Shown: piece after piece, positions 5,656 to 63,489 of the stretch | Position numbering within the stretch: the first letter of the stretch is position 1 | Layout: every line of letters starts with the position of its first letter | NCBI RefSeq assembly: GCF_023093535.1 | Contig: NZ_CP095757.1 | Coordinates: 558,001 to 622,000 of the forward strand | Reading direction: 5' to 3' | Length of the DNA stretch: 64,000 nt | DNA from: Halovivax limisalsi | GTDB taxonomy: Archaea > Halobacteriota > Halobacteria > Halobacteriales > Natrialbaceae | Program-made: the position numbers and the translations under genes | Notes under the pieces: model-generated | The model's database searches: none | Seen by the model: the letters and a program-made list of their open reading frames with translations, nothing else | What the model was told of the DNA's origin: nothing

Positions 5656-5682
5656 GAATCACAATCAATCCTTCGAGTGACT

Positions 5683-7362
5683 ATGGCTCAACAGCAGATG
5701 GGCAACCAGCCCCTCATCGTACTTTCCGAGGACAGCCAGCGAACCTCTGGCAAGGACGCGCAGTCGATGAACATCCAGGCCGGGACGGCCGTCGCGGAGA
5801 CGGTCCGCACCACGCTCGGCCCGAAAGGGATGGACAAGATGCTCGTCGATTCGGGCGGCTCCGTCGTCGTCACGAACGACGGCGTCACGCTCCTGACGGA
5901 GATGGAGATCGACCACCCGGCCGCCGACATGATCGTCGACGTCGCCGAGACTCAGGAGGACGAGGTCGGCGACGGCACCACCTCCGCCGTCGTCGTCGCG
6001 GGTGAACTCCTCAAACGCGCCGAGGACCTCCTCGACCAGGACATCCACGCGACCACGGTCGCGCAGGGGTACCGCCAGGCCGCCCAGGAGGCCAACGAGG
6101 TCCTCGAGGACGTCGCCATCGACGTCGACGCCGACGACGAGGAGATCCTGAAGCAGATCGCCGCCACCGCGATGACCGGCAAGGGCGCGGAGAACTCCCG
6201 CGACCTGCTGGCCGAACTCGTCGTCCGCGCCGTCCGCACCGTCGCCGACGAGGACGGCATCGACACCGACAACGTCTCCGTCGAGAAGGTCGTCGGCGGC
6301 GCCATCGAGGACTCCGAGCTCGTCGAGGGCGTCCTCATCAGCAAGGACCGCGTCTCCGACAACATGCCGTACTTCGTCGAGGACGCCAACGTGGCCATCG
6401 TCGACGGCGCCCTCGAGGTCAAGGAGACCGAGATCGACGCCGAGGTCAACGTCACCGACCCCGACCAGCTCCAGCAGTTCATCGAGCAGGAGGAGGCCCA
6501 GCTCAAGGAGATGGTCGACGAGCTCGTCGACGTCGGCGCCGACGCCGTCTTCGTCGACAAGGGCATCGACGACATGGCCCAGCACTACCTCGCCCAGGAG
6601 GGCATCCTCGCGGTCCGCCGCGTGAAGGACTCCGACGCGAGTCGCATCGCCCGCGCGACGGGCGCCACGCCGGTCTCGAACGTCGAGGACATCACCCGGG
6701 ACCACCTCGGCTTCGCCGGTAACGTCGCCCAGCGCGACGTCGGCGGCGACGACCACATCTTCATCGAGGACGTCGACGACGCCAAGGCCGTCACCCTCAT
6801 CCTCCGCGGCGGCACCGAGCACGTCATCGACGAGGTCGACCGCGCCATCGAGGACTCCATCGGCGTGGTCCGCACGACGATCGAGGACGGCAAGGTCCTC
6901 CCCGGCGGCGGCGCGCCCGAAGTTACGCTCTCGCTCGCGCTGCGCGACTACGCTGACTCCGTCGGCGGCCGCGAGCAGCTCGCCGTCGAGGCCTTCGCCG
7001 ACGCGCTCGAGGTCATCCCGCGCACCCTCGCGGAGAACGCCGGCCTCGACCCCATCGACTCGCTGGTCGAACTCCGCAGCGACCACGACGCCGGCGAGAC
7101 CGGCGCCGGACTCGACGCTTTCACCGGCGACACCATCGACATGGAGGCCGAGGGCGTCTACGAACCGCTTCGCATCAAGACCCAGGCCATCGACTCCGCG
7201 ACCGAGGCGGCCGTCATGCTGCTGCGCATCGACGACGTCATCGCCGCGGGCGACCTCGCCGTCTCCGACGACGACGAGGGCGAGGACATGCCGGCCGGCG
7301 GCCCGGGCGGAATGGGCGGCGGCATGGGCGGCATGGGCGGCGGCATGGGCGGCATGATGTAA
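5683..7362 (+). CDS. thsA: Thermosome subunit (group II chaperonin)
   Basis: Cytosolic ATP-dependent chaperonin subunit that forms a double-ring folding chamber. Visible family features: N-terminal [12 protein letters not shown]; the ATP-site GDGTT (in [10 protein letters not shown]); [13 protein letters not shown] in the apical region; GGGAPEV near the third quarter; and a glycine/methionine-rich tail with repeated GGMGG, typical of haloarchaeal CCT/thermosome subunits. Length (559 aa) is normal. ATG at 5683 is preferred to GTG at 5677 because [11 protein letters not shown] resembles family N-termini; the TATA box at 5648 fits either. Codon use is strongly GC-biased, consistent with high expression. 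A structured 3' element (copy A) begins right after the stop. Heat regulation is expected from the family but not shown here. The paralogue number (thsA, B or C) is uncertain. Confidence 0.96.
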
Positions 7363-7363
7363 A

Positions 7364-7485
7364 CCGAACTTTTCCGCTGCGGGCGCGGCAAGCCGCGCCC
7401 TCGGGAAAACTTCGATGAAAAGCACTCCTCCTTCCGTTCCGGGCGCGTAGCGCCCGTCACATCGTCGTCGGCCCGCTCACTCGGC
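7364..7485 (+). terminator. Conserved multi-hairpin 3' element, copy A (after thermosome)
   Basis: The element starts 1 nt after the thermosome stop. Outer stem TTTTCC (7370-7375) pairs with GGAAAA (7404-7409). Inner stem GGGCGCGGC (7381-7389) pairs with GCCGCGCCC (7392-7400) around a two-base loop. A conserved linker GATGAAAAGCACTCCTCC follows. Second hairpin CGGGCGC (7440-7446) / GCGCCCG (7450-7456) has a GTA loop. It then continues into a conserved GTCGTCGGCCCGCTC block. Copies B and C follow infB and pan. The 401-bp interval to the next gene holds no convincing ORF. Confidence 0.7.
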
Positions 7486-7694
7486 CTTCGGCCTCGTTCA
7501 CGGAGAACGCAATCGCTCGGACTCGCGGTTTCACCGCTCGTTTACTCGCGGTTCTCGCTCACTTCGATCGCGTCGAACCGTGCCTTCTTGGAACCACTCG
7601 CTCGGCGATGCTTGCGACCTTGAATGTCAAGCAATGTTTCGTCAAATAACTTCCTCGCCGGACCCGTACTGCCTTTCAAACCGGCAAACTGTGG

Positions 7695-56082: not shown

Positions 56083-56281
56083 CGCCAGTCACCTCGGGCG
56101 AAGCGACACACCGAAAGCGATCCGCACCCTACGACCCGTCGGGCGGCGGTGACGAAGCGTTACCCCCACCGAGCCCCGTGTGACGAGGGACTTCACCCGA
56201 GCCGCCCGCACTCTCGGGTCGCGCGACGACGGAGGATCCCGTGTCGATTCGCTGAACTCGTGTGGCGACCCGGTGACGATG

Positions 56282-56291
56282 GGTTTAACTG
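56282..56291 (+). promoter_or_regulatory. Candidate TATA box of infB
   Basis: GGTTTAACTG is centred about 49 bp before ATG 56335, predicting a leader of about 23 nt that contains GGTGG at 56325-56329, five bases before the ATG. infB would thus be one of the few leadered genes here. Confidence 0.5.
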
Positions 56292-56334
56292 TCGGCCCGC
56301 GGACCTTCGACCAAGAGCTTCTCTGGTGGTTCGC

Positions 56335-58140
56335 ATGTCGGATACAGATACTAACGCCCCCGAAACCGCCTCGCTCCGGACGCCGATCGTCGCCGTGCTC
56401 GGCCACGTCGATCACGGCAAGACGAGCCTGCTCGATCAGATTCGCGGCTCCGCCGTCATCGAGGGCGAGGCGGGCGCCATCACCCAGCACATCGGGGCGA
56501 CGGCCGTCCCGCTCGACGTCATCTCGGGCATCGCGGGCGACCTCGTCGACCCCGCCGACTTCGACCTGCCGGGCCTGTTGTTCATCGACACGCCGGGCCA
56601 CCACTCCTTCACCACGCTGCGCTCGCGCGGGGGCAACCTCGCCGACATCGCGATCCTGGTCGTCGACGTCAACGACGGCTTCCAGCCCCAGACGATCGAG
56701 GCGCTGGACATCCTCCAGCGCTCGGAGACGCCGTTCATCGTCGCCGCGAACAAGATCGACACCGTCCCCGGCTGGAACCCGACCGACGACGCCCCGATCA
56801 AACCCACCTACGAGAACCAGTCCGACCGCGTCCGGGGCGATCTCGACGAACGGCTCTACGAGATCATCGGCGAACTCTCCGATCACGGCTTCTCCGCCGA
56901 CCTCTACTGGCGGGTGCAGCACTTCCAGCGCAACGTCGGCGTCGTCCCCGTCTCCGCCATGACCGGCGAGGGCGTCCCCGACCTCCTGACCGTCATGATG
57001 GGCCTCTCCCAGCGCTACATGCGCGAGGAGATGGAGATCGACGTCGCCGGCCCAGGCGTCGGGACCGTCCTCGAGGTCAAAGAGGAGAAGGGCTTCGGGA
57101 CGACGATCGACATCGTCCTCTACGACGGCACCATCCGCACCGACGATCAACTCGTCGTCGGCGGGACCGCCGACCCGATCGTCACCGACGTCCGCGCGCT
57201 CCTCCAGCCCCGCCCGCTCGCGGAGATCCGCACGGAGAGCCGCTTCGAGCAGGTCGACCAGGTCGACGCAGCCGCCGGGATCAAGGTCGCCGCGCCCGAT
57301 CTCGCCGAGGCGATGGCCGGCGCGCCCGTCCGCGTCGTCCGCGATCGCGACCTCGAGGACGTCATCGACGAGGTCCGGGCCGAACTCGCCGAGATCGCCG
57401 TCGACACCGAAGAACAGGGCGTCGTCGTCAAGGCCGACACCCTCGGCAGCCTCGAGGCGATGGCCGACGCCCTCGGCGACGCCGAGATCCCGATCGTCCG
57501 CGCGGAGGTCGGCGACGTCGCCCCGCGGGACGTCTCGGTGGCCTCCACCGCCGAGGATCCGAAACGGCAGGTCATCCTCGGGTTCAACGTCGACGTCCTC
57601 GACGACGCCGAGCGCCGCGCCGAGATCGACGACGTCCGCATCTTCACCGACGACGTCATCTACCAGCTCGTCGAGGGCTACGAGGAGTTCGTCGCGGACC
57701 TCGAACGCGCCCAGCAGGACACCGTCCTCGAGAACATCACTCGCCCCGCCAGGTTCCGCGTCCTTCCCGATCACGTCTTCCGCCAGAGCGACCCCGCCGT
57801 CGTCGGCGTCGAGGTCAACGCCGGCACCCTGCAGAACAACGAGTCCGTCGTCCGCTTTACGGGCAACGACACCGAACGCGTCGGCCAGATCAAGGGTATC
57901 CAGGAGCAAGGCGAGGACGTCGACGAGGCCCGCGCCGGCACCCGCGTCTCCGTCGCCATCGACGGCCCCACCGTCGGCCGCCAGCTCCACGAGGACGAAG
58001 AGCTGTGGATCGAACTCCCCGAGAAACACGCCAAGATCTTAGAACAGGAACTCGCCGAGGAGATCCCCGCCGACGAGCGCGAAGCGCTGAACATGTACCT
58101 CGACAACCACCGCAAGCGCGACCCGTTCTGGGGGAAATAA
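56335..58140 (+). CDS. infB: Translation initiation factor aIF5B (IF-2)
   Basis: 601-aa translational GTPase. G1 GHVDHGKT, G2 region ITQHIGAT, G3 DTPGHHSF, G4 NKID and G5 SAMTGEGV are all intact. It continues through domain II (VGTVLEVKEEKGFGTTIDIV), domain III and the C-terminal domain ending YLDNHRKRDPFWGK. It promotes ribosomal subunit joining and initiator tRNA positioning. ATG 56335 starts MSDTDTNAPE directly before the G domain. A structured 3' element (copy B) follows the stop. Confidence 0.97.
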   Translation: MSDTDTNAPETASLRTPIVAVLGHVDHGKTSLLDQIRGSAVIEGEAGAITQHIGATAVPLDVISGIAGDLVDPADFDLPGLLFIDTPGHHSFTTLRSRGGNLADIAILVVDVNDGFQPQTIEALDILQRSETPFIVAANKIDTVPGWNPTDDAPIKPTYENQSDRVRGDLDERLYEIIGELSDHGFSADLYWRVQHFQRNVGVVPVSAMTGEGVPDLLTVMMGLSQRYMREEMEIDVAGPGVGTVLEVKEEKGFGTTIDIVLYDGTIRTDDQLVVGGTADPIVTDVRALLQPRPLAEIRTESRFEQVDQVDAAAGIKVAAPDLAEAMAGAPVRVVRDRDLEDVIDEVRAELAEIAVDTEEQGVVVKADTLGSLEAMADALGDAEIPIVRAEVGDVAPRDVSVASTAEDPKRQVILGFNVDVLDDAERRAEIDDVRIFTDDVIYQLVEGYEEFVADLERAQQDTVLENITRPARFRVLPDHVFRQSDPAVVGVEVNAGTLQNNESVVRFTGNDTERVGQIKGIQEQGEDVDEARAGTRVSVAIDGPTVGRQLHEDEELWIELPEKHAKILEQELAEEIPADEREALNMYLDNHRKRDPFWGK

Positions 58141-58149
58141 CACCACCAA

Positions 58150-58350
58150 CCTTTTGCGCTGCGTGCGGTCGCTACGCGACCGCACTCGGCAAAACGTTGA
58201 TGAAAAGCGCTCCTCCCTCCGTTTCGTGACGCTACGCGTCACTCCACATCGGTCGTCGGCCCGCTCGCTCACTTCGTTCGCTCACGGAACTAGAACTAGT
58301 CTACCCCAGCCTTTCCCCGTTGGCAGGCGGTTCGGCCAGAACCGCCTGCC
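58150..58350 (+). terminator. Conserved multi-hairpin 3' element, copy B (after infB)
   Basis: Outer stem TTTTGC (58152-58157) / GCAAAA (58189-58194). Inner stem GTGCGGTCGC (58163-58172) / GCGACCGCAC (58176-58185) with a TAC loop. Linker GATGAAAAGCGCTCCTCC. Second stem GTGACGC (58226-58232) / GCGTCAC (58236-58242), loop TAC. Then the CACATCGGTCGTCGGCCC block, CCAGCCTTTCCCCGT, and a perfect 12-bp terminal hairpin GGCAGGCGGTTC (58322-58333) / GAACCGCCTGCC (58339-58350). The rest of the 327-bp interval to the next gene holds no ORF. Confidence 0.75.
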
Positions 58351-58467
58351 AGGCCATCGGGTTAACCGATTGGACGTTCGATTTCACGTTCGGTTCGAAA
58401 CCGGGTGACGGCGACGTGCCGTGCGAAACCCGAACGCCTAAATCGGCAGTAGTGTTAGATAGTAAAT

Positions 58468-61856: not shown

Positions 61857-62050
61857 AATTGCCCGCGGGGTCCGGCGCTTCACTTGGAGAGCGCTGGACC
61901 GAATCCCTCCGAATACAACTCTGGTGGGGTCATGGTAGCAGATTTTTCTGGCTCGTGAGGGGCCACGCCGAACGCGTCGACGTCCGGCAGTAGTAACTGA
62001 GCAATGTTCGAATCGGACTGATCACCGGAACAACGGTGCGGCGGCCGTGA

Positions 62051-62256
62051 GCGTGCCCGTTTGGGCACGCGAGCACGGGGAAAGGCTGGTTCGCGCTAGT
62101 CCACTCACCGCGAGCGAGTCCGCGGAGCGGACGAGCGAGCGGGCCGACGACCGATGTGGAGTGACGCGAAGCGTCACGGAACGGAGGGAGGAGCGCTTTT
62201 CATCGAAGTTTTGCCGAGTGCGGTTGCGTAGCGACCGCACGCAGCGCAAAAGTTCG
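62051..62256 (-). terminator. Conserved multi-hairpin 3' element, copy C (after pan)
   Basis: Begins 3 nt after the pan stop (minus strand). Outer stem TTTTGC/GCAAAA (plus-strand 62246-62251 and 62209-62214). Inner 10-bp stem with one mismatch (62231-62240 / 62218-62227). Linker GATGAAAAGCGCTCCTCC. Second stem GTGACGC/GCGTCAC (62171-62177 / 62161-62167) with loop TTC. Then the CACATCGGTCGTCGGCCC block, a GTCCGC/GCGGAC hairpin, CCAGCCTTTCCCCGT (62075-62089), and a terminal 8-bp hairpin GCGTGCCC/GGGCACGC (62051-62070). Very close to copy B over its full length. Confidence 0.75.
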
Positions 62257-62259
62257 GTA

Positions 62260-63489
<1,230 letters not shown>

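Follow-up and report, generated by a model that had tools for sequence, protein, structure and literature searches.

The window analyzed here, 64,000 nucleotides of the Halovivax limisalsi genome (NZ_CP095757.1, positions 558,001 to 622,000), contains three copies of one structured element. As noted in a preliminary description, they share the same architecture and lie directly behind the genes for a thermosome, translation initiation factor IF-2 and a PAN-like proteasome-activating ATPase (Table 1). The first base pair forms 2 nt past the stop codon of the thermosome gene, 6 nt past that of infB and 3 nt past that of pan. The linker pattern of the element matches the window three times, with 0.05 matches expected in shuffled sequence, and the copies reach 136 to 142 bits (E of 1e−32 to 1e−33) with a covariance model (CM), scores that are not independent of the model because copies A to C belong to its training set. 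The interval 7364-7485 first given for copy A marks the right site and is too short: a third hairpin extends the element to 7504, and about two-thirds of all copies carry a fourth hairpin, hp4.

Table 1. Element copies, their parts and host genes. Positions refer to the window, except for the short class, whose approximate positions refer to the whole genome.
Feature	Position	Strand	Basis or remark
Thermosome/TCP-1 chaperonin, host of copy A	5677..7362	+	Pfam PF00118, E 1e-179
Copy A, after thermosome gene	7364..7504	+ (sense); better-folding strand −	CM R1, 136.4 bits; aligned in A1
Copy A, stem P1: CGAA/TTCG, X.Z, TTTTCC/GGAAAA, with variable inner hairpin hp1	7365..7414		Sequence and pair counts
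Copy A, unpaired tract AT-G-AAAA (opposite strand UUUU-C-AU)	7415..7421		
Copy A, helix P2 with TC/TC mismatches (opposite strand GA/GA), capped by variable hairpin hp2	7422..7472		
Copy A, hairpin hp3 (opposite strand: tandem GA and GNA triloop)	7473..7503		
Translation initiation factor IF-2 (infB), host of copy B	56149..58140	+	NCBIfam NF003078, C-terminal 479 aa
Copy B, after infB	58146..58288	+	CM R1, 141.6 bits
Copy B, conserved hp4 block CCAGCCTTTCCCCG..hairpin..GGCC	58306..58356	+	Sequence
Proteasome-activating AAA ATPase (PAN-like), host of copy C	62260..63489	−	Pfam AAA, AAA_lid_3, Prot_ATP_ID_OB_C
Copy C, after pan	62107..62257	−	CM R1, 140.5 bits
Copy C, hp4 block	62044..62089	−	Sequence
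Short class, same genome	L195 1313200; L199 510209; L201 511177; L202 120267; L204 3720129; L206 121013		

The CM was built from an alignment of 26 simple copies and comprises 39 base pairs. Covariation was counted over 102 distinct copies, which had been collected with the CM and not with the linker pattern. Their paired cells amount to 94.1%, and two-sided changes number 604, versus 158 (sd 11) in shuffles and 27 to 85 when the partner was slid; since the 102-copy alignment was fitted to the CM, these counts are biased towards it, and the changes are also visible by eye in a MAFFT alignment. The compensating stem changes previously read from the three window copies are real, and with the larger set they extend to 30 of the 39 pairs. 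The outer pairs of P1, for example, vary between CGAA/TTCG, CAAC/GTTG and CCAA/TTGG, and the inner ones follow TTTTnC/GnAAAA with G, A, C or T at n.

Throughout the 3.89-Mb genome the linker pattern matches 15 sites with at most 2 mismatches, a reversed control pattern matches none, and the CM finds 17 copies at an E-value of 1e−6 or below. The preliminary description had suggested a CM scan of haloarchaeal genomes, which returned matches in 112 of 194 genomes of Halobacteria. Within the Natrialbaceae, 52 of the 61 sampled genomes contain 1 to 23 copies each, and several other families have 15 to 25 copies per genome. The architecture of the element is class-wide, and its exact linker is largely specific to the Natrialbaceae. 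A search of Rfam 15 with both strands of the window and the element gave no family at the gathering threshold and only chance-level matches at a permissive E-value (best sub-threshold E of 0.12), in line with the earlier remark that the element is not known to belong to a named family. Nor did we find it described in open-licence papers.

The element is a composite of several helices, with a fold of about 110 to 400 nt and a unit of 110 to 200 nt, and in 68 of the 102 copies hp4 follows at a near-fixed spacing, 13 to 19 nt past the third hairpin. Its linkers had been taken for conserved primary sequence. For the most part they instead pair with each other as a helix, P2, and the unpaired remainder is only the AAAA tract with its neighbors. 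On the opposite strand, RNAalifold pairs the two linkers with each other (GCC-GA-C-GA-CY-GA with GGA-R-GGA-G-GA-G-Y-GC), and outside the Natrialbaceae joint changes affect the pairs that separate the invariant TC/TC (GA/GA) steps, from C-G to G-C at 63-119, 68-115 and 71-112 and from C-G to U-A at 65-118. In these families 160 of 174 P2 cells are Watson-Crick pairs, compared with a mean of 108 and a maximum of 122 after shuffling.

P1 is the best conserved stem. Its TTTT/AAAA pairs and the linker AAAA, which abuts P2 and has a length of four in 94 of 101 copies, are near-invariant, and the adjoining positions covary. The third position of the tract, linker base Y, tracks the P1 pair X.Z (C.C/G, A-T/C, C-G/C and G.A/T as X.Z/Y) across 203 distinct elements. 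Tract and stem also vary together in length (4/4/4 versus 5/5/5): where P1 has five T/A pairs, the tract has at least five positions in 4 of 5 copies, compared with 11 of 197 otherwise, a relation that comes from few cases. On the opposite strand the U tract and the A strand of P1 would run in parallel, as in a U.A-U triple, which we regard as suggestive only.

Which strand folds? Several tests agree in favoring the strand opposite the adjacent gene as the one on which the element mainly folds. The RNAalifold energies for the opposite and the gene strand are −40.2 versus −23.2 in alignment A1, −37.8 versus −21.3 in A2 and −35.9 versus −28.7 in the other families, and in 112 of 116 single copies the strand opposite the host gene is the more stable one. 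Read on the opposite strand, the conserved internal loops TC/TC turn into tandem G.A, and the hp3 loops, with TNC to GNA counts of 22:0 and 10:0 in the sense direction, become GNA. Departures from pairing on the sense strand of the Natrialbaceae copies are A.C in 121 cases and G.U in 17, that is, G.U on the opposite strand; two A.C-rich columns are perhaps misaligned, and leaving out these and column 126-230 reduces the bias to 48:15. This bias is absent in the other families (G.U 21 versus A.C 13), and generic hairpin arms give no strand signal (G.U 26 versus A.C 21); both counts limit the strand claim, and G.U pairs are few throughout.

These results bear on one of the original readings of the element, the RNA of a sense-strand 3′ untranslated region, such as a stability structure against 3′-to-5′ mRNA decay. 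That reading agrees with the sense orientation immediately past stop codons; the A-rich tract could fit into the groove of P1, and X, Z and Y and, to some extent, the lengths vary jointly. The strand tests, however, favor the opposite strand, some copies lie at promoter edges and have no sense gene upstream, and tRNA and RNase P RNA are also among the hosts; we now consider a sense-strand 3′ structure distinctly unlikely. Alternatively, the opposite strand could give rise to an antisense or stand-alone structured noncoding RNA, stable or processed, which exerts its effect on the mRNA next to it or in trans. Its complex conserved fold with invariant motifs and the stand-alone copies in Natrialba-type genomes point in this direction, but some 20 copies with divergent hairpins per genome do not, and the sequence that lies upstream of the fold, beyond hp4, showed no conserved AT signal resembling a promoter. 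We consider a noncoding RNA very improbable, and its variant as an independent sRNA gene with a promoter beyond hp4 was rejected for want of an AT-rich signal. Of the earlier claim of a selected RNA structure, the selected secondary structure stands; RNA and single-stranded DNA as the folding molecule are indistinguishable by sequence.

The placement of the element is strict. Its first base pair lies 0 to 5 nt past the stop codon of the upstream open reading frame (ORF) in 85 of the 102 copies. When ORFs are required to have 100 codons or more, the association holds for 79 of 102 copies; displaced positions would give 1.5, and the other end of the element gives 5 on the other strand. The association with gene 3′ ends noted at the outset is borne out. 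Outside the Natrialbaceae, the TTTT begins 2 to 8 nt past a stop codon in 48 of 70 cases. Genes for stable RNAs are flanked in the same way: copies begin 4 to 9 nt after tRNAs, RNase P RNA and SRP RNA, with SRP RNA genes among the hosts in the Natrialbaceae and, in other families, copies 4 to 6 nt after tRNA-Ala, tRNA-Ser and tRNA-Met and one directly downstream of RNase P RNA. In a third class, represented by one copy in the H. limisalsi genome, the TTTT of P1 lies 45 to 50 nt before the ATG of S6e, S8e, NAC or DUF5779 genes and faces the promoter; for some of these copies, no sense-oriented gene lies upstream. At ORF ends, RNA gene ends and promoter edges alike, P1 is thus turned towards the gene unit, and the stand-alone copies fall outside these three classes.

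The hosts are diverse. According to Pfam and NCBIfam, with which host proteins were identified, they further include L10e, TFS, eIF1A, TbsP, EngB, acyl-CoA dehydrogenase, glutamate dehydrogenase and TrkH. The suggestion that the element follows genes for abundant NTP-driven machines does not hold for a list that contains L10e, TrkH, tRNAs, SRP RNA and RNase P RNA. The presence of copies at the ends of tRNA, SRP RNA and RNase P RNA genes and at promoter edges also excludes a purely ribosome-linked role, and a general function that depends on ribosomes or stop codons, such as REP-like stalling, was rejected because of the same RNA genes. One host, the large subunit of DNA polymerase II (L010:3-1445), contains the N-terminal splicing region of an intein (TIGR01445). 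In several genera (L007, L033, L039, L041, L053, L057, L106) the element sits at the junction of gyrB and a gyrA-like gene, both judged from their C- and N-terminal sequences. At this position, perhaps inside an operon, the element need not terminate gene-sense transcription completely.

Stand-alone copies away from ORFs share the upstream sequence ..ACTACxxxTGCxxxACCGAAC (L112, L122, L144, L120, L111, L141, L059, L093, L113, L026, L051). Some lie about 75 nt past the stop codon of a convergent gene, for example, for an Obg-like or HflX GTPase. A 3′ untranslated region of the convergent right-hand gene was discarded as a general rule because the distance on that side is not fixed.

Copies of the element come and go. 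Among 30 orthologous rpl10e sites, the element is present at about a dozen, decayed pieces remain at two and the rest have none; several full copies are preceded by an 11- to 17-nt remnant of the 5′ strand of an older P1, as in TAACAACGACCTTTTGCGCTG before CAAACTTTTGCGCTGC; and extra hairpin cassettes have been inserted. We therefore conclude that copies are gained, replaced and lost. Full copies with such a remnant, as if one copy had entered another or taken its place, are L299, L249, L253, L315, L322, L033, L124 and L075. The cassettes occupy fixed positions in P1 or a linker and are common to several loci (AAAAGAGC..GCTCTTTT; GTGATGACGA..CGAACCACGG; CTCGCGGGA..TCCCGCTTAGC), among them L007, L028, L032, L042, L058, L092 and L158.

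This history is the basis of the strongest rival to an insulator function, namely, that the element is a dispersed, nonautonomous mobile or repetitive element of the REP/BIME kind, which needs its hairpins to spread, perhaps in the form of single-stranded DNA, and persists only at sites where gene units stay intact. Gain, loss and decay at the rpl10e site, nested 5′ remnants, modular extra hairpins and 1 to 25 copies per genome are all compatible with it. In addition, copies at the same host are barely more similar to each other than to others (0.79 versus 0.76), wobble pairs are rare overall, and GNA triloops and tandem GA are compatible with DNA, too. However, hugging gene ends within 0 to 5 nt in a fixed orientation is unlike random insertion, the same genes serve as hosts in different genera, and no mobility gene adjoins the stand-alone copies scanned. 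On balance, we rate a mobile repeat as unlikely. Among nine genes in the neighborhood of stand-alone copies, Pfam identified no Y1/RAYT transposase and a single TnpB about 2 kb away, and a TnpB/omega RNA system was dismissed on this ground; spread by viruses was dismissed as well, as seven linker matches in IMG/VR come without the remainder of the element.

A shorter related class occurs in the same genome, mostly with T5/A5 tracts, and its opposite strand reads as a GC hairpin followed by TTTTT(TT)C. One of its members, L202, follows a gene with a RadA-looking C-terminal sequence.

What, then, could the element do? Archaeal genomes are dense and rich in antisense transcription, and little is known about how they separate the ends of genes. 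We hypothesize, with nearly even confidence, that the element marks gene boundaries in haloarchaea and acts there as a two-faced transcription terminator with an insulating role; a specialised terminator was also among the possibilities first listed. RNA polymerase would arrive from outside, as antisense transcription, readthrough from a convergent neighbor or transcription towards a promoter. Transcription towards the gene would yield hp4, hp3 and P2, which closes directly onto UUUU, and then P1. From the observed anatomy, covariation, strand preference and placement, we infer that a strong helix closed onto a U4 or U5 tract would make the polymerase stop at the boundary. In addition, base triples probably align the A/U tract with P1, a tentative detail, and the U4/U5 located 5 to 11 nt past the gene perhaps aids the end of the gene's own transcript. 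Two published observations provide the setting for this proposal: in Haloferax, the intergenic termination signal is a T stretch ending at C, and T5C gave 95% termination in reporters (PMC7237163); antisense RNAs occur at at least 21% of Halobacterium genes (PMC6523106).

An intrinsic terminator has a GC-rich stem with a U tract right behind it. On the opposite strand of our element P2 closes straight onto UUUU, and the short class reads as a hairpin followed by UUUUU. The U tract has only four residues in most copies, and a standard terminator scan, which required 5 T of 8, called neither copy A nor the long-class copies. A weak point of the insulator proposal is P1, which in the antisense direction lies past the U tract and is nevertheless best conserved, while a simple terminator would have no need for it. 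Also against the proposal are the missing G.U/A.C asymmetry in other families and in generic hairpin arms, the lack of a promoter-like AT signal beyond hp4 and the many orthologous genes that do not carry the element. A bolder form of the proposal, possible but doubtful to us, is that Halobacteria as a class use folded, directional elements to shield the ends of mRNA, tRNA, RNase P RNA and SRP RNA genes and promoter edges from outside transcription, by means of tandem-GA helices on the antisense strand and a U tract that may be triple-helical on P1. Such elements would form an undescribed class of insulators.

A boundary element that can be computed across Halobacteria, at genes for housekeeping functions, for tRNAs and for RNase P RNA and SRP RNA, would open the separation of gene ends to direct tests in Haloferax or Natrinema, and it would supply haloarchaeal genetics with a terminator part. 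If it is a mobile repeat instead, it represents a structured repeat family with unusually strict placement at gene ends.

Among known systems, REPs are palindromes of 20 to 40 bp that belong to one REP superfamily and are often linked to a RAYT (Y1) transposase. The element resembles REP/BIME sequences in being multicopy, palindromic and intergenic, often just past stop codons, in its modular hairpins and in its patchy occurrence, and enterobacterial REPs are found within 15 nt of stop codons (PMC12306157). Unlike them, it is one composite, covarying fold with a partly invariant architecture and not a 20- to 40-bp palindrome, and it also occurs after tRNA, SRP RNA and RNase P RNA and at promoter edges. 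Bacterial bidirectional intrinsic terminators combine hairpins, A tracts and U tracts between gene ends, and the hairpins and A/U tracts of the element could likewise serve both directions; the contrast is that the strong fold of the element is one-stranded and its placement relates to one gene. With archaeal T-stretch terminators such as the Haloferax T5C signal it shares U4/U5 at gene ends, and the opposite strand of the short class is a hairpin followed by TTTTTC, but the T-stretch motif needs no conserved hairpin (PMC7237163), whereas the element has three or four, with tandem GA and a defined orientation. Where ENE-like RNAs have U.A-U triples between a U/A helix and a third tract, the element has near-invariant TTTT/AAAA pairs, a linker AAAA and a base Y that follows X.Z, which are no more than suggestive of such a structure. 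With the structured RNAs in Rfam it shares a conserved secondary structure with covariation.
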